Below, one piece after another: positions 144 through 56,546 of a stretch of DNA of 56,546 bases; within the stretch, counting starts at the first letter, position 1, and every line of letters starts with the position of its first letter. The position numbers were made by a program, and so were the translations under genes. Below the pieces are notes generated by a model. The model was not told the DNA's origin. It ran no database searches and saw nothing but the letters and a program-made list of their open reading frames with translations. Origin of the DNA: an uncultured Bacillota bacterium (GTDB taxonomy: Bacteria > Bacillota_I > Bacilli_A > RF39 > UBA660); NCBI GenBank assembly GCA_947644695.1, contig CANSAJ010000006.1, forward strand, positions 1 through 56,546, in the 5' to 3' direction.

Positions 144-284
144 TCACTTATATTCAAGAGAAATTTCTGGACGTACTCCGCCACCATTATTAGTACGACT
201 TGCAAAACCAGGAGCATCAGTACCACAGACAATAAGTACTGAGACCCAAACATTCGAACTATAATACCAATCAGACGGACTCAT
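144..284 (-). other. Variable cassette A1 (46-codon ORF)
   Basis: ORF from ATGAGTCCG to TGA. The core contains VCGTDAPGFASRTNNGG, followed by GVRPEISLEYK. The hairpin ATAGT-GAAA-ACTAT (minus strand) is at 126-139. There is no convincing Shine-Dalgarno site, so translation is unproven. Confidence 0.75.
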
Positions 285-445: not shown

Positions 446-598
446 TTACCTACATTCAAGAGAAATTTCTGGACGTACTCCACCACCACCAGCAGTACCA
501 TAAACGTAATCGTGCCCTAAATAGCCAGTAAAACCAGTACCACTCGCAGTGAACATGAGTGATTTAGTCTTACTAGTATTCCAATAAGACGGACTCAT
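446..598 (-). other. Variable cassette A2 (50-codon ORF)
   Basis: ORF from ATGAGTCCG to TAA with core ending GHDYVYGTAGGG, then GVRPEISLECR. The same 5-bp GAAA hairpin as in A1 follows. Only about 24 bp separate it from the end of A3, so the normal spacer upstream of this cassette is absent. Confidence 0.75.
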
Positions 599-622: not shown

Positions 623-805
623 TCATTCTACTATAGCTTCTACTATAAACTTACTTCTATTAAAAGAAATTACTGGACGTACTCCGTAACTATTACTGAC
701 ATAAAAGCTATACATGTAGCCAGGAGAGCCAGAACCACGCACATAAAACACTACTGATATCCACTCAGATACTTTACTCAACAAAGACCAGTCATACGGA
801 CTCAT
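623..805 (-). other. Variable cassette A3 (60-codon ORF)
   Basis: ORF from ATGAGTCCG whose core carries YVRGSGSPGYMYSFYVSNSY, then GVRPVISF. It reads through the hairpin region (633-646, stem ATAG/CTAT with a 6-nt loop) and ends SKFIVEAIVE. Cassette B5 ends with the closely similar GEFIVETIVE. This may be the ancestral tail that most cassettes lose through an earlier stop. Confidence 0.75.
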
Positions 806-965: not shown

Positions 966-1124
966 TCACCTACATTCAAGAGAAATTACTGGACGTACTC
1001 CAACCTCAAGGTATGCAGCAGAGGAATCCAAGTCACCACAGACCACAGAGCCAAATGCAACACCAGAACCATACACCAAGAACACGTGCAAGTACCCACC
1101 AGATGCATAGTAATACGGACTCAT
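966..1124 (-). other. Variable cassette A4 (52-codon ORF)
   Basis: ORF from ATGAGTCCG to TGA. The core includes FLVYGSGVAFGSVVCG, then GVRPVISLECR. The hairpin ATAGT-GAAA-ACTAT lies at 948-961. Confidence 0.75.
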
Positions 1125-1289: not shown

Positions 1290-1454
1290 TTACCAAGAGA
1301 AATTACTGGACGTACTCCAACTTGGATTACTGAAAAAGCCATAATTTAATGAACCAGGATAACTAGAACCAGCTAGTATGAACACATTCGTATAAAAAAG
1401 ATCTTCCCCAGCACCCCATTCATCCAACTGTTTATAAAATCGATACGGACTCAT
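1290..1454 (-). other. Variable cassette A5, frameshifted
   Basis: Starts MSPYRFYKQLDEWG but reaches the conserved 3' block in the wrong frame, giving SWSTSSNFSW and a stop. Removing one T from the T5 run just upstream would restore GVRPVISL. The hairpin here has a different sequence, ATTGTA-TTAA-TATAAT (1264-1279, one G-T pair), so the fold is kept although the bases changed. It is either a damaged cassette or a sequencing slip. Confidence 0.7.
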
Positions 1455-1620: not shown

Positions 1621-1779
1621 TCACCTATATCCAAGAGAAATTTTTGGACGTACTCCGTACGTAGCATAGACACTGTTGTAATTCAAGTAGCCAGGAGAAT
1701 CAGAACCACGCACACGAAAAACATCTGACGATAATACACCTAATCGTGCGACAGATAAAGGAAAACCATACGGACTCAT
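1621..1779 (-). other. Variable cassette A6 (52-codon ORF)
   Basis: ORF from ATGAGTCCG to TGA. The core includes VFRVRGSDSPGYLNYNSV, then GVRPKISLGYR. Its hairpin (1605-1616, ATAG-GAAA-CTAT) is the short type seen in the second array, making it the array A member closest to array B. Confidence 0.75.
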
Positions 1780-48733: not shown

Positions 48734-50905
48734 CTAGAAAAAACTTTTCAAACTTGTATGCCTATTTTCACTATAACTTTGTTGGATAGCATAATTTAAA
48801 CTATCTATAGATCCTACAACAATTAAACCTTTCTTTGCCCTGGTAACAGCTGTATACAAAAGTTTATTATATAACATTCTTTTCATATTGGAAGGAATTA
48901 CCACTAAAACATTAGAATATTCACTACCTTGACTTTTATGAACACTAATAGCATAAGCATGAGTAAATTCATCAAACTTACCTTTTCTATAAACCACAAC
49001 ATTACCATTATAATTTATCTCAATTAATGGCTCCTTAGTCTCTATAATTCTTTTAATATATCCTGTATCCCCATTATATATATTGTTATCAACGTCGTTA
49101 ACTAACTGAATAACTTTATCCCCTTCTCTATAAACAACATCTCTAATAGTAATTTCCCTTTTATTTTTACTTTCTTTATTAAAAATAGATTGCATTAAAA
49201 CATTTATATTATCTATTCCATTCTCACCTTTATACATAGGAATAAGAACTTGAAAATCCTCTATATCTAAATCTTTATCTAAAGCTTTCTCGCAAATTTC
49301 TTCTATATACTTTTTAATTAAAATATCAGGACAACTAATAAACTTAAAATCATCATAATTATTTGGTAATTCTTTAAACGTATTACGATTTTTAATATCC
49401 TGAGAAAAAGGAATAATATAAGAGTCTCCTTTAGTTCTATAAATTAAATCTAAATATTTTCCAGGAATACTATCAACTTCTAACAAATCTCCTAAAATAT
49501 TACCTGGAGAAATACTCGGTAATTGATTAGCATCTCCTACCATAATTAACCTAATATTACTATTAAGTCCATCAAGTAAACTATTAAAAAGAAAAATATC
49601 AACCATACTAAACTCATCAATAACAACTAACTTGGTCTCTGCAGGATTATACCTATTGACACTAAACTCTTTAGTTTCTTTATTCCATTTAAGAAACTTA
49701 TGAATAGTACTAGCTTTTCTATTAACACTTTCAGTAATTCTCTTAGCTGCTCTACCAGTGGGAGCTAACAAAGTAATATCACTCATCTCAGTATCTTCAT
49801 ATATACTTTCATAAATATCTACTACTGCTTTAATAATAGTGGTTTTACCAGTACCAGGACCTCCTGTAATAATAAATAAATTATTCATTAAACTACCCAC
49901 TATTGCATCTCTCTGACAATCATTAAAACTAATAGAATTCTTCTTTTCATACTTTATAATCTCTTTATCAATTCTTTCTTTATTTATATTATTTTTTATA
50001 TTAATAAGATTATTAACTGCAGAAGCTATATTAGCTTCAGTTTCATAAAACTCATTTAAAGTAACTAATTCATGAACCTCTATAACTTCTCCTAATTCTA
50101 TTAAATCTTCAATACATGAAAGAAAAACCTTAGAATCAAGTGTATCACTAAAATACTTATTAATTTCTATAAATAAAGTTTCTTTATCTACTAAAGTATC
50201 TCCACTCTTATAACATAAAGCTTTTATACAATACTTTATAAGCGCATTAACTCTAACAATTTCAAACTCATCATGAAGCTTCAAAAAAACTTTATCTAGT
50301 TTTAAAAAATTAATATCACTTTCTAATACATAAACATTATTCTCAAGAATTTCTGGTGCTCGATCTTTATATTTATTTACTATCTTCAAACACTCTTCAG
50401 TAGTAAATCCTAACTTATTAAATTCTAATATCAAAGATTGATCTTTATCATATTCAAGTATTTTCTTAGTGAGCTCTCTTGCCTTTTTTTCATTCATACC
50501 TTTAACCTTAGCAAGAATTGGACTTGAAGTTTTAATAGCTTCTATTGTATCTTCACCAAACGTATCTACTATTGCTTTAGCAATTTTAGGTCCTATACCT
50601 TTAAATATACTACTAGATAAATACATGACAATCCCATCTTTAGTATCTGGCACTACTGATTCATAACTTACAACTGCAAATTGAACACCAAACCTGGGAT
50701 GATTAGTAATATATCCATTAAATTTATAAGTAAGTTCATTATTAAGAGGCATAAAATTTCCAGTAAATGTTATTGTTTTATTTACATAAGACTTTAACCC
50801 ATCTCCACTAGCTTCCTTAACCTTAAAAAGTCCAACCTTATAACCAGTTGAACTCTCAAACAAGATTTTAACTACATTTCCTTTTATATAACTATTTTCA
50901 TTCAT
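48734..50905 (-). CDS. recD2: RecD2-type ATP-dependent DNA helicase
   Basis: A 5'-3' SF1B helicase that works without RecBC. It has N-terminal OB and helix-hairpin-helix regions (GIGPKIAKAIVDTFG), Walker A in ITGGPGTGKTTIIKAV (near residue 347), Walker B in VIDEFSMVDI, and the C-terminal AISVHKSQGSEYSNVL. Its upstream region is not an ordinary promoter. It continues directly into the spacer of the second cassette array, with the same TTCTTAATAATTTG block. Confidence 0.95.
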   Translation of the reverse strand: MNENSYIKGNVVKILFESSTGYKVGLFKVKEASGDGLKSYVNKTITFTGNFMPLNNELTYKFNGYITNHPRFGVQFAVVSYESVVPDTKDGIVMYLSSSIFKGIGPKIAKAIVDTFGEDTIEAIKTSSPILAKVKGMNEKKARELTKKILEYDKDQSLILEFNKLGFTTEECLKIVNKYKDRAPEILENNVYVLESDINFLKLDKVFLKLHDEFEIVRVNALIKYCIKALCYKSGDTLVDKETLFIEINKYFSDTLDSKVFLSCIEDLIELGEVIEVHELVTLNEFYETEANIASAVNNLINIKNNINKERIDKEIIKYEKKNSISFNDCQRDAIVGSLMNNLFIITGGPGTGKTTIIKAVVDIYESIYEDTEMSDITLLAPTGRAAKRITESVNRKASTIHKFLKWNKETKEFSVNRYNPAETKLVVIDEFSMVDIFLFNSLLDGLNSNIRLIMVGDANQLPSISPGNILGDLLEVDSIPGKYLDLIYRTKGDSYIIPFSQDIKNRNTFKELPNNYDDFKFISCPDILIKKYIEEICEKALDKDLDIEDFQVLIPMYKGENGIDNINVLMQSIFNKESKNKREITIRDVVYREGDKVIQLVNDVDNNIYNGDTGYIKRIIETKEPLIEINYNGNVVVYRKGKFDEFTHAYAISVHKSQGSEYSNVLVVIPSNMKRMLYNKLLYTAVTRAKKGLIVVGSIDSLNYAIQQSYSENRHTSLKSFF

Positions 50906-51070
50906 AAAACTAATATAACATTAAATATACAAAAAGAAAACATCAAATTATTAAGAACTTTCTATTAATACTAATCCCTATCATTTAATGCTTTAGTTTC
51001 TAGTCTACTAATTAGACAATGGATAATACTTGTTTCTCTCAAGTTTATTCTACTATAGTTTCCTATGAAC

Positions 51071-51211
51071 TCACCTATATCCAAGAGAAATTACTGGACG
51101 TACTCCGTTCCCATTGTTGACGTTACCATTACTCAAGTTGCCAGGATTGTCAGAACCGTTCACACGAAACACGTTCGAGTTACCACTGGAATTACCAAAA
51201 TACGGACTCAT
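51071..51211 (-). other. Variable cassette B1 (46 codons)
   Basis: Core reads GNSNVFRVNGSDNPGNLSNG, then NVNNGN and GVRPVISLGYR. It is very rich in AAC/AAT (Asn) codons and close to a template-like state. Hairpin ATAG-GAAA-CTAT at 51055-51066. Confidence 0.8.
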
Positions 51212-51391
51212 AAAAGTTTATTTACCAATATTATCCTCATCTATTATACTATAAAAAAACACCAAATTATTAAGAACTTTCTTTAACAATACTAATCCCT
51301 ATTATTTAATGCTTTAGTTTCTAGTCTACTAATTAGACAATGGATAATACTTGTTTCTCTCAAGTTTATTCTACTATAGTTTCCTATGAAC

Positions 51392-51535
51392 TCACCTATA
51401 TCCAAGAGAAATTACTGGACGTACTCCGTTCACATTGTCAACGTTATTGTTATTCAAACGGCCAGGATAGTCAGAACCACGCACGTTAAACACGTTCGAG
51501 TTAGTATTACTAGAATTCCAGTTATACGGACTCAT
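51392..51535 (-). other. Variable cassette B2 (47 codons)
   Basis: Core TNSNVFNVRGSDYPGRLNNN, then NVDNVN and GVRPVISLGYR. Versus B1, substitutions are mainly in AAY codons (for example CGT/AAC swaps around the conserved GTG). Confidence 0.8.
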
Positions 51536-51684
51536 CATAATTTATTTACCAATATTATCCTAATATATTATACTATAAAAAAACACCAAATTATTAAGAA
51601 CTTTCTTTTATAATACTAATCCCTATCATTTAATGCTTTAGTTTCTAGTCTACTAATTAGACAATGGATAATACTTGTTTCTCT

Positions 51685-51855
51685 TTAGTTTATTCTACTA
51701 TAGTTTCCTATGAACTTACCCTTCTCAAGAGAAATTACTGGACGTACTCCGTACGCACTGTTGACGCGAGTGTTATTCAAGTAGCCAGGGTTGCTAGAAC
51801 CGTACACGTAGAACACGTTCGAGTTACCATTAGAATTACCGTTAGACGGACTCAT
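51685..51855 (-). other. Variable cassette B3 (56 codons)
   Basis: Core GNSNVFYVYGSSNPGYLNNT, then RVNSAY and GVRPVISL. A small change after the block puts the frame through the hairpin to the end KFIGNYSRIN. TAC, CGC and AGC codons replace the AAC seen in B1. Confidence 0.8.
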
Positions 51856-52034
51856 CATAATTTATTTACCAATATTATCCTAATATATTATACTATAAAA
51901 AACACCAAATTATTAAGAACTTTCTTTCACAATACTAATCCTTATCATTTAATGCTTTAGTTTCTAGACTACTAATTAGACATTGGATAATACTTGTTTC
52001 TCTTTAGTTTTTTCTACTATAGTTTCCTATGAAT

Positions 52035-52175
52035 TCACCTATATTTAAGAGAAATTTCTGGACGTACTCCACCATAACTCTGTACTCCTCCACGGTGCAT
52101 CTGACCAATTTCATCAGAACCAAGCAAAGCAATAACATTAGAATCTCCAGTATTATAACACCTATACGGACTCAT
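52035..52175 (-). other. Variable cassette B4 (46 codons)
   Basis: More diverged core (GDSNVIALLGSDEIGQMHRG), then GVRPEISLKYR. The usual Asn pattern is mostly lost, so this copy looks old or heavily mutated. Confidence 0.75.
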
Positions 52176-52321
52176 TATTTAATTCTTACTTAAAAAATAT
52201 TATCATTTATAAATATAGAATACAAATTAATAAAAATTTTCTATAAAATACTAATACTCATTAATTTATTATTTTAAAATTTTTGTTTCAAAAACTTAGA
52301 TAATATTTGTTTCTCTTTAAC

Positions 52322-52501
52322 TTATTCTACTATAGTTTCAACTATGAACTCGCCTATACTAAGAGAAATTTCTGGACGTACTCCACCACCACCACGAACA
52401 TAAAAGTAACTCAAGTGACCAAGATCACTAGAACCATTCACACGAAACATGTCCGCATCATCGTTGGTAGTACCAGTCCACAAGAAATAATACGGACTCA
52501 T
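52322..52501 (-). other. Variable cassette B5 (59 codons)
   Basis: Core DMFRVNGSSDLGHLSYFYVR, then GVRPEISL. The frame continues past the hairpin (ATAGT-TGAA-ACTAT) and ends GEFIVETIVE, like A3. Confidence 0.75.
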
Positions 52502-52671
52502 TTACAATTTACTTAATAATATCATCCAATATTAAATCATTAAAATAATAAACTAATAAAAACTTTCTATTTAGTACTAATATTCATTAATTTAATATTC
52601 TTAATTTTTGTTTCAAAACTAGGATAATATTTGTTTCTCTTTAGTTTATTCTACTATAGTTTCCTATGAAC

Positions 52672-52809
52672 TCACCTATATTCAAGAGAAAATACTGGAC
52701 GTACTCCACACGCGACAATGACATCAAGACTACCTAAGTTGCCAGGGTTGCTAGAACTGCCCATGAAAAACACATACGAGCTACCACCATACCAATGAAA
52801 CGGACTCAT
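52672..52809 (-). other. Variable cassette B6 (45 codons)
   Basis: Core SSYVFFMGSSSNPGNLGSLD, then GVRPVFSLEYR. It is the first cassette downstream of the superoxide reductase gene, 31 bp from its stop. Confidence 0.75.
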
Positions 52810-52839
52810 TAAATAATACACTAATATTACCATGCATAC

Positions 52840-53211
52840 TTATTGAACAATTTTAGACCATAAACCATGTTTATTACAATATGAATAAATTTTAGAACCC
52901 TTTACATATTCAAACTTAAATTCAGATTTCTCATTAAAATTAAATTTTTTAATATAAAGTAAATCATCATCTTTAGTCAACATTACAAATTGAATATAGT
53001 GATCTTCTTCCATAGGATGTTCTACTTCTCCAACTTTAACTAAAATTAAATCATCTTTAACTTCGTAAAATGGAACATGCTTTTCTTGCGAAGCATCAAC
53101 TGTATTTTCTAATAATTCTTCCATATCTACTCCACAACAAGTTATAGGTTTTATATTTCCTTCAATAATAGTAATAATATTTCCACATATAGGACACTTA
53201 TAAATTTTCAT
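52840..53211 (-). CDS. Superoxide reductase / desulfoferrodoxin
   Basis: Reduces superoxide to hydrogen peroxide without releasing oxygen, as in strict anaerobes. The N-terminal desulforedoxin iron site is CPICG...CC (residues 6-9 and 26-27). The catalytic Fe(His)4Cys centre is given by EKHVPFY, VEHPM and YCNKHGLW. The start MKIYKCPIC (ATG at 53211) follows AAGGTGG. The gene interrupts the cassette array, which supports an anaerobic lifestyle but shows no functional link to the cassettes. Confidence 0.92.
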   Translation of the reverse strand: MKIYKCPICGNIITIIEGNIKPITCCGVDMEELLENTVDASQEKHVPFYEVKDDLILVKVGEVEHPMEEDHYIQFVMLTKDDDLLYIKKFNFNEKSEFKFEYVKGSKIYSYCNKHGLWSKIVQ

Positions 53212-53444
53212 TTTTACCACCTTCATTATTTCTTATAGTAATATACATAATACTTTTGTATTTATAATAAGATTACTATATTAAATATTATACTAAAAAC
53301 AATATATTAAGAAAAGTATTTATTCACCATTACTTCTTTATAAAAATATCAAACTAATAAAAATGTTCCTAATTAGTACTAATACTCAACAATTTAACAT
53401 TCTTGAATTTTCGTTTTTAAATCTGGAATAATATCTGTTTCTCT

Positions 53445-53615
53445 TCAGTTTATTCTACTATAGTTTCCTATGAACTTTCCAATACCTAAGAGAAATTCTG
53501 GACGTACTCCACCAGTAGAAGTATGAACAAGAGGGTTGCCCAAATGACCAGTATCAGAACCATACACAAAAAACGCGGACGAGTAACCACCAGATTTAGT
53601 GTTAGACGGACTCAT
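53445..53615 (-). other. Variable cassette B7, end frameshifted (56 codons)
   Basis: Core AFFVYGSDTGHLGNPLVHTS, then GVRPE. One base is missing in the AATTTCT run, so ISL becomes FLL, and the frame ends KFIGNYSRIN. Confidence 0.75.
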
Positions 53616-53795
53616 CATAATTTATTTACCAATATTATCCTAATCTATTATACTATAAAAAAACACCAAATTATTAAGAACTTTCTTTCACAATACTAAT
53701 CCCTATCATTTAATGCTTTAGTTTCTAGTCTACTAGCTAGACAATGGATAATACTTGTTTCTCCCAAGTTTATTCTACTATAGTTTCCTATGAAT

Positions 53796-53951
53796 TCACC
53801 TATATCCAAGAGAAATTACTGGACGTACTCCGCCATTAGTATTGTTGACATTAGCGTTATTCAAGTTGCCAGGGTTGTCAGAACTGCGCACACGAAACAC
53901 GTTCGAGTAGTTAGTGCTACTACTATTCCAGTTGAAGTTAAACGGACTCAT
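53796..53951 (-). other. Variable cassette B8 (51 codons)
   Basis: Core STNYSNVFRVRSSDNPGNLN, then NANVNNTNG and GVRPVISLGYR. Its near-twin is B9. Asn-rich, with AAC/AAT at most hypervariable positions. Confidence 0.8.
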
Positions 53952-54130
53952 AATAATTTTTTACCAATATTATCCATATCTATTATACTACAAAAAAACA
54001 CCAAATTATTAAGAACTTTCTTTCACAATACTTATTCTTATCATTTAATGCTTTAGTTTCTAGTCTACTAATTAGACAATGGATGATACTTGTTTCTCTT
54101 TAGTTCATTCCACTATAGTTTCCTACGAAC

Positions 54131-54286
54131 TCACCTATATTCAAGAGAAATTACTGGACGTACTCCGCCAAAAGTATTGTAGACATTAGCGCCATTCAAG
54201 TAGCCAAGGTTGTCAGAACTGCGCACACGAAACACGCTCGAGTAGTGAGTGCTACTACTATTCCAGTTGAAGACAAACGGACTCAT
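54131..54286 (-). other. Variable cassette B9 (51 codons)
   Basis: Core STHYSSVFRVRSSDNLGYLN, then GANVYNTFG and GVRPVISLEYR. Differs from B8 at 11 core nucleotides, of which 10 are at coding adenines. The hairpin is kept with a G-T pair (GTAG-GAAA-CTAT). Confidence 0.8.
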
Positions 54287-54435
54287 ATATTCTATTTACC
54301 AATATTATCCTAATCTATTATACTATAAAAAAACACCAAATTATTTAAGAACTTTCTTTCACAATACTAATCCCTATCATTTAATGCTTTAGTTTCTAGT
54401 CTACTAGCTAGACAATGGATAATACTTGTTTCTCT

Positions 54436-54603
54436 TTAGTTCATTCCACTATAGTTTCCTATGAACTCACCAATTTCAAGAGAAATTACTGGACGTACTC
54501 CGAACGCAGCGTTGACGTAATTGTTATTCAAGTTGCCAGGGTTGTCAGAACCGTGCACAAAGAACACACGCGAGTTACTGCCATTCCAGTTATACGGACT
54601 CAT
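54436..54603 (-). other. Variable cassette B10 (55 codons)
   Basis: Core SNSRVFFVHGSDNPGNLNNN, then YVNAAF and GVRPVISL. The frame continues to GEFIGNYSGMN. Confidence 0.8.
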
Positions 54604-54752
54604 AATAATTTATTTACCAATATTATCCTAATATATTATACTACAAAAAAACACCAAATTATTAAGAACTTTCTTTCACAATACTTATTCCTATCATTTA
54701 ATGCTTTAGTTTCTAGTCTACTAATTAAACATTGGATAATATTTGTTTCTCT

Positions 54753-54923
54753 TTAGTTCATTCCACTATAGTTTCCTATGAATTCACCTATATCCAAGAG
54801 AAATTTTGGACGTACTCCACCAACAGTATCGTAGACAACAACTTGATCCAAGTAGCCAGGGTTGCCAGAACCGTGCACTTGGAACGTGTCCGAGAAACTA
54901 CGATTCCAATAAGACGGACTCAT
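54753..54923 (-). other. Variable cassette B11, end frameshifted (56 codons)
   Basis: Core SDTFQVHGSGNPGYLDQVVV, then GVRPKFLLDIGEF. A one-base loss in the conserved TTTCT run shifts the end, as in B7. It is the cassette closest to the full-length surface gene. Confidence 0.75.
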
Positions 54924-55006
54924 AGTAATTTATTTATCAATATTATCCATATCTATTATACTATAAAAAATTTAATTTACATTAAGCTAAAACAAATTTT
55001 TAAAAA

Positions 55007-55034
55007 ATCGGCTTCAAGTTAACTTGAAGCCGAT
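55007..55034 (-). terminator. Perfect 28-bp palindrome, terminator of the surface gene
   Basis: Self-complementary 28-mer centred on AAGTTAACTT, with GC-containing arms ATCGGCTTC/GAAGCCGAT, followed by TTTTTTAAAAATTTG on the minus strand. It fits a strong rho-independent terminator after the large gene. Confidence 0.8.
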
Positions 55035-55040
55035 AAAGCT

Positions 55041-55064
55041 GGCCGCGAAAAGGTTTTCGCGGCC
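55041..55064 (-). other. GC-rich inverted repeat just after the stop codon
   Basis: Arms GGCCGCGAAAA and TTTTCGCGGCC with a 2-nt centre, 4 bp after the stop codon of the surface gene and 6 bp before the terminator palindrome. Its GC content is far above the surrounding DNA. It could be an mRNA-end hairpin, a cruciform or a protein-binding site. Confidence 0.65.
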
Positions 55065-55068
55065 AAAT

Positions 55069-56546
55069 CTAATTTTCAGCACTACTACATGTACTATTGA
55101 TTTCTACTTTATATGGGTTTGCGCTTGTACCGTTTCCGGAAGATGTCAGAACGCAAGATTTCAGAGAAACTACTGGACGTACTCCACCTGCAGTATGAAC
55201 ACCTTCCCTAACTAAATAACCTATATTGCTAGAAGTATCAACACTAAATAAACACGGATTACTAAAAGGAACCCCACCACTTCGCCAAATATAATCAGAC
55301 GGACTCATTGTCCACCACCAGGTGGACCCGGTTACACTGCCTCCGGCAGCGTTGTAGTAATAATATGCTGGCGCATTTGTACCATATTTTCCTCCTGCGA
55401 ATGCTACCTCATCTGCTGTCATCAAAGCTACTGGGTTTGTTAGTTTTCCATTTCCTGTACTTGTACTTGCTGTGAATTTATCAGCTGTACTTGCCCCATT
55501 TGTTCCACTATACAAGCTTCCACTTGCATTATTTCCACATTTATATGATGGTGCTTTTGCATCTACTAGTCTCTTATACGCTGCATAGTAGAATGTTGAC
55601 GATGTACTATATCCTTCATTTGCCCTGTCATTACAATAGATTGCTGTTTTACTTACATATCCATTATAACTTGGTTCTATTGTCTTATCATACCATGTAT
55701 CTATTACTCCCTTTATTGTTGAATTTGTCGTATTATTTCTATTACTTGCTAAACTTCCACTACTTCCATACATATATCCTACATACATTGGATTATTATA
55801 TGTTGTATTATATGCACTTGTTGTCTCGTTTATATATCCTTTTTCTGTATTCTTATCTGGTCCTACATAAAGTAATCTTACACTTCCGTCTTCATTTATA
55901 CGAATTATTCTCCAATATAGTCCTGCAAAATATACCCAGTTATCCTGTGCATTTCCTGAGAAATAATATACTGTATTTCCATTTTCTGTCTGATTTCCAC
56001 TCGCTGTATATAATGTTCCTGTATTATTATCTGTGAATACTCCACTATTTAGGTTTGGTCTAGCTCCTGGTCTTGTTGGATGATCTGCTAGTATCTTCGT
56101 CTTTAATGTTGTGTCTACTACATATGATACTGTACATGTTTGACTACTATTTATATTACTTACTGTTGCTGTGGTTCCGCTTAGTGTTATTACTGCTCCT
56201 TTATTACATGAATAACTATCTAAGATGTAGCCACTATTTGGTGATACTCCTGTGAATGTCAGACTTCCTCCTGGTGTTGATACTATCTTACTTGTACCTC
56301 CTGTACCATTATTTACTACTAATGTTACCTTTATCTCTTCTTTTGGTACTACTGTACATGTGGTATTTGATTTTATATTACTTACATTTACTGTTCCATT
56401 ACTAATGGTTGCAGTTGCATTGTTTGTACATGTTACTGTTGCTCCTGTTAATGTGTATCCACTGTTTGCTGTTACTTGGAATGAGGTTGAACCTATCCTT
56501 CCTACTGTCTTATTTGCAGGTGCTGTTATACTTATGTTACTTCCTA
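55069..56546 (-). CDS. Large surface-type protein, partial; carries the cassette-type C-terminus
   Basis: The frame is open to the window edge, so the N-terminus is missing; 491 residues are visible. Two repeated beta-type domains of about 70 residues come first (GYTLTGATVTCTNNATATIS, then GVSPNSGYILDSYSCNKGAV), each with a Cys pair, like InlB/Big-type adhesin repeats. Next is a domain beginning DNWVYFAGLYWRIIRINEDG, then MTADEVAFAGG and STWWWTMSPSD. The last part runs from MSPSD through a variable core to GVRPVVSL and corresponds to the cassettes. The WWTMSPS...GVRPV layout resembles the C-type-lectin-like (FGE-sulfatase-type) terminus of DGR targets. After the block a short hairpin CCG-GAAA-CGG (55130-55139) sits where the cassettes have theirs. 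Confidence 0.8.
   Translation of the reverse strand, partial: GSNISITAPANKTVGRIGSTSFQVTANSGYTLTGATVTCTNNATATISNGTVNVSNIKSNTTCTVVPKEEIKVTLVVNNGTGGTSKIVSTPGGSLTFTGVSPNSGYILDSYSCNKGAVITLSGTTATVSNINSSQTCTVSYVVDTTLKTKILADHPTRPGARPNLNSGVFTDNNTGTLYTASGNQTENGNTVYYFSGNAQDNWVYFAGLYWRIIRINEDGSVRLLYVGPDKNTEKGYINETTSAYNTTYNNPMYVGYMYGSSGSLASNRNNTTNSTIKGVIDTWYDKTIEPSYNGYVSKTAIYCNDRANEGYSTSSTFYYAAYKRLVDAKAPSYKCGNNASGSLYSGTNGASTADKFTASTSTGNGKLTNPVALMTADEVAFAGGKYGTNAPAYYYYNAAGGSVTGSTWWWTMSPSDYIWRSGGVPFSNPCLFSVDTSSNIGYLVREGVHTAGGVRPVVSLKSCVLTSSGNGTSANPYKVEINSTCSSAEN

Follow-up and report, generated by a model that had tools for sequence, protein, structure and literature searches.

What are seventeen short cassettes, each resembling part of a surface-type gene, for, and in which direction does sequence pass between them and the gene? 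The window considered here is the whole 56,546-nucleotide contig C6 of an uncultured Bacillota bacterium (GTDB RF39; UBA660), a gut bacterium with a genome of 1.25 Mb in 56 contigs, of which selected stretches were also read. All cassettes lie on the minus strand in two groups, eleven at 50998–54923 (array B) and six at 75–1779 (array A), the same numbers as in a preliminary description of the window, with corrected boundaries. That description had suspected a diversity-generating retroelement (DGR) with remote, trans-acting parts, and had offered the cassettes as targets in trans, donors for recombination, or expressed mini-proteins. DGRs are usually treated as one reverse transcriptase (RT) with a neighbouring template. 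In this genome the RT, Avd, targets and adenine-specific differences of such a system are all present, and the cassettes are very probably stand-alone template genes that a single RT/Avd/MutS-like operon would use in trans on dispersed targets.

Cassettes, target genes and the reverse transcriptase operon

As first described, copying starts at ATGAGTCCG and closes with an invariant block, GGAGTACGTCC, in 17 of 17 window cassettes, which recur with a period of about 320 bp. Their cores vary in length, start with ATG and stay open and in frame in all but one (A5, frameshifted). Spacers within array B are indeed nearly identical, at 93–96% between pairs, against only 53–81% for the cores. An 11-mer from the cassettes has 45 exact matches in the genome versus 3 for a reversed control (one mismatch allowed), and a covariance model counts 31 or more cassettes, spread over four contigs: 17 on C6, five at the end of C12, eight on C49, and a single one on C8 that stands after a target gene. 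Because contigs end inside arrays (C6, C12 and C49 here), such counts are lower bounds.

Cassettes are present in all nine genomes of the genus and in none of 51 other genomes in the same comparison; the viral contigs searched held neither the cassette motif nor relatives of the RT. Numbers per genome range from one or two (G001, G003, G004, G008) through six (G002, G007), 16 (G005) and 31 (G000) to at least 68 (G006). Where there are only one or two, they are mostly rich in AAC/AAT codons, and in G001, G004 and G008 they are adenine-rich, classical template repeats (TRs), located at the array position or adjoining a target gene. The array next to recD2 is the same locus in G000, G001, G004 and G006.

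About 20 dispersed genes carry the cassette-like block, within the pattern WWTMSP...GVRPV. In the window's target gene at 55069, this variable repeat (VR) lies inside the gene and spans about 41 codons, and some 33 further codons follow GGAGTACGTCC; the cassettes do not copy the gene's last codons, as had been proposed. As to a C-type-lectin or similar fold, in which DGRs carry the VR, the target proteins match DUF6273 weakly, and the predicted structure of the target domain has a pLDDT of only 36.

A search of the genome for a DGR RT and an avd-like gene, suggested at the outset, found both in one operon (C12:6018-7894) that encodes, in order, Avd, RT and a small MutS-like protein. The 373-residue RT (C12:6345-7463) is of DGR type, with the motifs GLPIGNMTSQ and YMDD and a match to phrog_1423 (5.6e-73). 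Its best solved relative, 8ub7_A (1.6e-32), ranks above a group II RT (1.7e-16); we take 8ub7 to be the BPP-1 DGR complex, the structure table labelling it only 'Reverse transcriptase'. Avd matches phrog_3206 ('Avd protein of DGR', 1.6e-9), NF033474 (6e-8) and PF22296 (bAvd, 2.4e-6), with the Pfam and NCBIfam scores under the curated cut-offs, and the third protein has a MutS_I domain (8e-7). Of the other eight genomes in the genus, five have the RT, at 76–79% identity. Close relatives of the enzyme come from metagenome-assembled genomes of uncultured Bacilli/Firmicutes, and two of these belong to sets that bear the label 'Lapin'. In DGRs a TR within the RT locus is usual but not obligatory; in the window's genome no TR was found around the operon, and the nearest cassettes are about 23 kb away on C12.

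Other RTs of this genome were considered and set aside. One on C3 is group II-like (a group II intron RT, L001), and three RT-like genes of other, non-DGR kinds lie at L002:1363-3024 (C4), L004:1345-2382 (C33) and L005:1228-2814 (C45). These three are possibly related to retrons or defence, and one of them is close to a target gene.

Adenine asymmetry between cassettes and genes

We paired each gene with its best cassette in the same genome at an identity of at least 0.65, which gave 33 pairs from nine species; the pairs are not independent, and the tiny p-values are therefore nominal. Across them, the cassette has adenine where the gene differs at 470 positions, and the gene has adenine where the cassette differs at 113. 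Adenine sites are changed in 47% of cases, and C, G and T sites in 11–14%. The window's genome alone gives 86 against 22, at nearly equal mean adenine content (0.22 in cassettes, 0.23 in genes). Individual pairs are sharper still. Scored as adenine in cassette, adenine in gene and other, the cassette at C12:31062 and the gene at C3:41022 give 13/0/2, a close pair in G008 gives 12/0/1, and the RT-adjoining gene of G002 differs from cassette L140-4267 at 16 positions, every one a cassette adenine (16/0/0). At diagnostic non-adenine positions, further genes of G002 agree with different cassettes (L140-4618, L140-2765), and therefore several templates have been used within one genome. A positive control, the outgroup DGR L063 with its TR directly after the RT, behaves in the same way, with 98% identity at non-adenine positions and 11 of 28 adenines changed. 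It is the cassette that has the adenine and the gene that has a different base, and this direction makes the cassettes templates, and not mainly VRs or targets in trans.

It had also been stated that variation falls on the first two bases of certain codons. For AAC/AAT codons in close pairs this is borne out. Over all cassettes it does not hold, with variation of 0.52/0.52/0.46 at codon positions 1/2/3, the third position being nearly as variable because many cassettes are highly diverged. In the 12 closest pairs of cassette and gene, 50% of AAC/AAT adenines are changed, against 17% of other adenines.

The templates themselves appear to be mutated by the same route. Compared with the G001 TR, cores in G000, G006 and G005 are changed at 42–50% of adenines and spacers at 14–19% of theirs, while non-adenine bases change alike in both (26–34% and 28–33%). 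The neighbours at 53831 (B8) and 54166 (B9) differ by ten changes at B8 adenines, none in reverse and one other, and the cassettes L140-4267 and L140-5158 score 7/0/0. Since these differences fall on adenines almost alone, cassettes seem to overwrite one another by an adenine-mutagenic route, and such mutagenic retrohoming from cassette to cassette would make new templates and turn the array into a hypermutated template library. Many cassettes of G000 and G006 have few or no AAC/AAT codons. It is conceivable, though we hold this only tentatively and rate it somewhat below an even chance, that the array is an evolving library in which adenine-rich TRs mutate and adenine-poor ones serve as memory, with one RT for both tiers. 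Speculatively, templates stripped of AAC/AAT codons would be nearly non-mutagenic, archived, heritable variants, which the RT could write back into surface genes almost unchanged.

The RNA element, the sister genus and competing explanations

Directly 3' of each TR lies a conserved, covarying structured RNA of about 75 nt; sequence beyond GGAGTACGTCC is kept in almost every cassette, and the single cassette on C8 has it too. Over nine species the fold has three stems: P1 (UUUCUCUU/AAGAGAAA), P2, which covaries, and P3, a hairpin that carries an AGUA bulge. Standard pairs were counted over 104 distinct units and compared with the number expected when partners are re-dealt. One P2 pair, with six pair types, is standard in 99 units where 50 would be expected; the figures are 102 against 84 for a second P2 pair and 99 against 75 for one pair of P3. 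Minimum-energy folding returns the three stems for seven of eight single sequences, and their main part for the eighth. A consensus from the window's cassettes alone had no covariation, which appeared only after other species were added; the spacers of the window itself have fold energies that do not stand out, and an Rfam search of the array matched no family.

In a search of 193 genomes drawn from the family with the RNA model, one match fell outside the genus, in G222 of a sister genus (2.2e-6). There, a 3.7-kb locus holds, in this order, a VR gene, a TR, the same RNA element as in the cassettes, avd and an RT (50% identical). Of 100 positions, 17 are different between TR and VR, and 16 of the 17 are adenine in the TR. 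The RT frame of G222 (L196:3353-4882) apparently has a MutS-like part fused at its end, a part that the window's genus encodes as a gene of its own. Given this one-locus layout, it is the window's genus that has separated the TR and RNA from the RT operon. In BPP-1, the spacer that separates TR from brt takes up a fold and recruits bRT-Avd (PMC12875486). Because G222 has a homologous element between TR and avd-RT, the cassette RNA may, by analogy, correspond to that spacer RNA.

We thus envisage a unit of a TR of about 100–130 bp followed by a three-stem RNA that would recruit RT-Avd. The unit would be transcribed and then reverse transcribed in trans by the products of the C12 operon, with errors opposite adenines, and the cDNA would replace the block between ATGAGTCCG and GGAGTACGTCC in one of the dispersed targets. 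On this reading, the TR-RNA unit left the RT locus in the window's genus and was amplified into arrays.

Several observations weigh against this proposal. Cassette C49:922 (L040:816-1045) and the VR of the window's gene, with unrelated flanks, differ by a single base in the core (A to T), so that one of 29 adenines is changed, where typical pairs show a dozen or more adenine differences; this fits nearly unmutated writing, plain gene conversion, or capture of gene sequence by the array. A TR with AAC/AAT at all variable columns, proposed at the outset as something to look for, is absent from the whole window genome at up to two mismatches, and many cassettes there have only 0–3 AAC/AAT codons. 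A close match to the RT is missing from three of the nine genomes of the genus, which are only 74–82% complete. Promoter-like sites number 30, against 23 in shuffles; a promoter is not demonstrable from this, and we therefore claim none. What the sequence itself shows is the set of parts, the adenine asymmetry, the fit of different templates to different genes, the RNA covariation, the conserved locus and the layout of G222; from these we infer that the units are transcribed and used in trans, that the RNA has a role and that the system is active at present.

A surface gene with partial copies of its sequence in tandem nearby also recalls vls, tprK and vlhA, which are systems of silent-cassette antigenic variation, and the cassettes could be silent donors that convert the surface genes by ordinary homologous recombination, as for vlsE, tprK and vlhA, with no RT involved. 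The pair of C49:922 and the window's gene also speaks for this explanation. Gene conversion, however, predicts no base asymmetry, and the adenine bias is strong both over all pairs and within the window's genome at equal adenine content; the covariation of the RNA and the layout in G222 would also go unexplained. As a replacement for the RT route it is improbable, and it may act alongside it. Of the roles first suggested, that of donor for the surface gene comes closest, with the change that the donors appear to act via the RT.

That the cassettes are instead stand-alone VRs, written from a TR elsewhere, would agree with cores mutated at the adenines of the ancestral TR far more often than spacers, and with the one-way copying between cassettes in the window and in G002. 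Against it, genes derive from cassettes through loss of adenine, the cassettes of G001, G004 and G008 are classical TRs, and a scan of selected stretches of the window's genome for a single all-adenine TR returned cassettes only. Since the genes derive from cassettes in this way and no other TR was found, the cassettes are better understood as templates that are also hit, and we regard the VR reading as very unlikely. Less credible again is expression as mini-proteins of 45–60 residues, even though the cores of the window and of some relatives are open from ATG, with one of 17 window cores frameshifted. In six of nine readable cassettes from G002–G004 an in-frame TAG stands directly before the core (AGTCCG), and therefore such expression cannot be a general function; beyond GGAGTACGTCC, moreover, the frame differs between cassettes while the RNA pairs are kept. 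We give this idea almost no weight, and return to stand-alone templates as the best explanation.

Coordinates of the cassettes, the target gene and the flanking locus marker in the window
Feature	Span	TR or VR	Strand	Basis or remark
Cassette B1: TR + 3' RNA element	50998–51211	TR 51096–51211	-	TR boundaries; RNA model match 127 bits
Cassette B2: TR + 3' RNA element; A-rich, 12 AAC/AAT codons	51319–51535	TR 51417–51535	-	TR boundaries, RNA model
Cassette B3: TR + 3' RNA element	51643–51855	TR 51740–51855	-	TR boundaries, RNA model
Cassette B4: TR + 3' RNA element	51962–52175	TR 52060–52175	-	TR boundaries, RNA model
Cassette B5: TR + 3' RNA element	52275–52501	TR 52374–52501	-	TR boundaries, RNA model
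Cassette B6: TR + 3' RNA element	52599–52809	TR 52697–52809	-	TR boundaries, RNA model
Cassette B7: TR + 3' RNA element	53403–53615	TR 53500–53615	-	TR boundaries, RNA model
Cassette B8: TR + 3' RNA element; most template-like in genome, 13 AAC/AAT codons	53723–53951	TR 53821–53951	-	TR boundaries, RNA model
Cassette B9: TR + 3' RNA element; related to B8, mutated at adenines	54058–54286	TR 54156–54286	-	TR boundaries, RNA model
Cassette B10: TR + 3' RNA element	54394–54603	TR 54491–54603	-	TR boundaries, RNA model
Cassette B11: TR + 3' RNA element	54711–54923	TR 54808–54923	-	TR boundaries, RNA model
Cassette A1: TR + 3' RNA element	75–284	TR 169–284	-	TR boundaries, RNA model
Cassette A2: TR + 3' RNA element	371–598	TR 471–598	-	TR boundaries, RNA model
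Cassette A3: TR + shortened 3' RNA element; overlaps A2	577–805	TR 675–805	-	RNA model 64.7 bits
Cassette A4: TR + 3' RNA element; zero AAC/AAT codons remaining	891–1124	TR 991–1124	-	TR boundaries, RNA model
Cassette A5: TR (frameshifted core) + diverged 3' RNA element	1210–1454	TR 1308–1454	-	TR boundaries, RNA model
Cassette A6: TR + 3' RNA element	1548–1779	TR 1646–1779	-	TR boundaries, RNA model
Target (surface-type) gene, open to contig end; one of a family of ~20 dispersed genes	55069–56546		-	
VR of gene 55069, internal block		VR 55175–55308	-	One difference from cassette C49:922 (cassette A, gene T)
recD2 helicase gene	48734–50905		-	Flanks array in four species; locus marker, no participation claimed

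Array B is split by a desulfoferrodoxin gene (52840–53226), and a relative of that gene (48% identity) adjoins cassettes in G005 (L132:3555-3923). On contig C46 of G006, three consecutive cassettes (L131:6075-7100) have identical predicted core proteins, which points to duplication in tandem not long ago or to an artefact of assembly. The same genome, for all its cassettes, has just four genes that match WWTMSP exactly, whereas in G002 and G004 the relation is the other way round; the pattern may not capture the targets of G006.

Relation to known systems

Multiple VRs occur in 271 of 948 DGRs, 216 of these 271 with one TR, and the largest number of TRs in the papers searched is six, in a case termed atypical by its authors (PMC6642488). 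Trans action has been proposed in Thiohalocapsa PB-PSB1 (PMC10907252), and a large RT-centred survey states that remote targets would escape it (PMC8144416). Tandem TR-RNA arrays were not described in the literature searched, which took in only a minority of subscription journals and no bioRxiv preprints. Judged by its sequence, the system therefore appears to be a DGR with a layout new among those described in that literature. Templates here are separate, amplified to tens of copies, directed at about 20 targets per genome, and found genus-wide, and pipelines centred on the RT, which search near it, would overlook systems of this kind. With the arrays, two ideas become testable, the TR-RNA unit as a trans module and the evolution of DGR templates by retrohoming, and the array units, with natural compensatory changes in nine species, are a data set on the RNA needs of DGR reverse transcription.

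The BPP-1 DGR (mtd-avd-TR-spacer-brt; PMC12875486) shares with this system an RT, Avd, TR, VR, adenine-specific differences and an RNA 3' of the TR, and its gene order is nearly that of G222. What differs is that in the window's genus the TR and RNA stand apart from avd-RT, amount to at least 31 units and would serve some 20 genes at scattered sites. Other DGRs resemble the system in that several TRs, or targets remote from the RT, have been reported for them (Yan et al. 2019, PMC6642488; Thiohalocapsa PB-PSB1, PMC10907252); the papers searched give no more than six TRs, in contrast to the tandem TR-RNA arrays and what seems to be a self-mutating template library here. In layout, finally, the system resembles vls, tprK and vlhA, where a tandem library of partial copies feeds a surface gene family, and it departs from them in that transfer here carries the signature of an adenine-mutagenic RT and each unit includes an RNA element.

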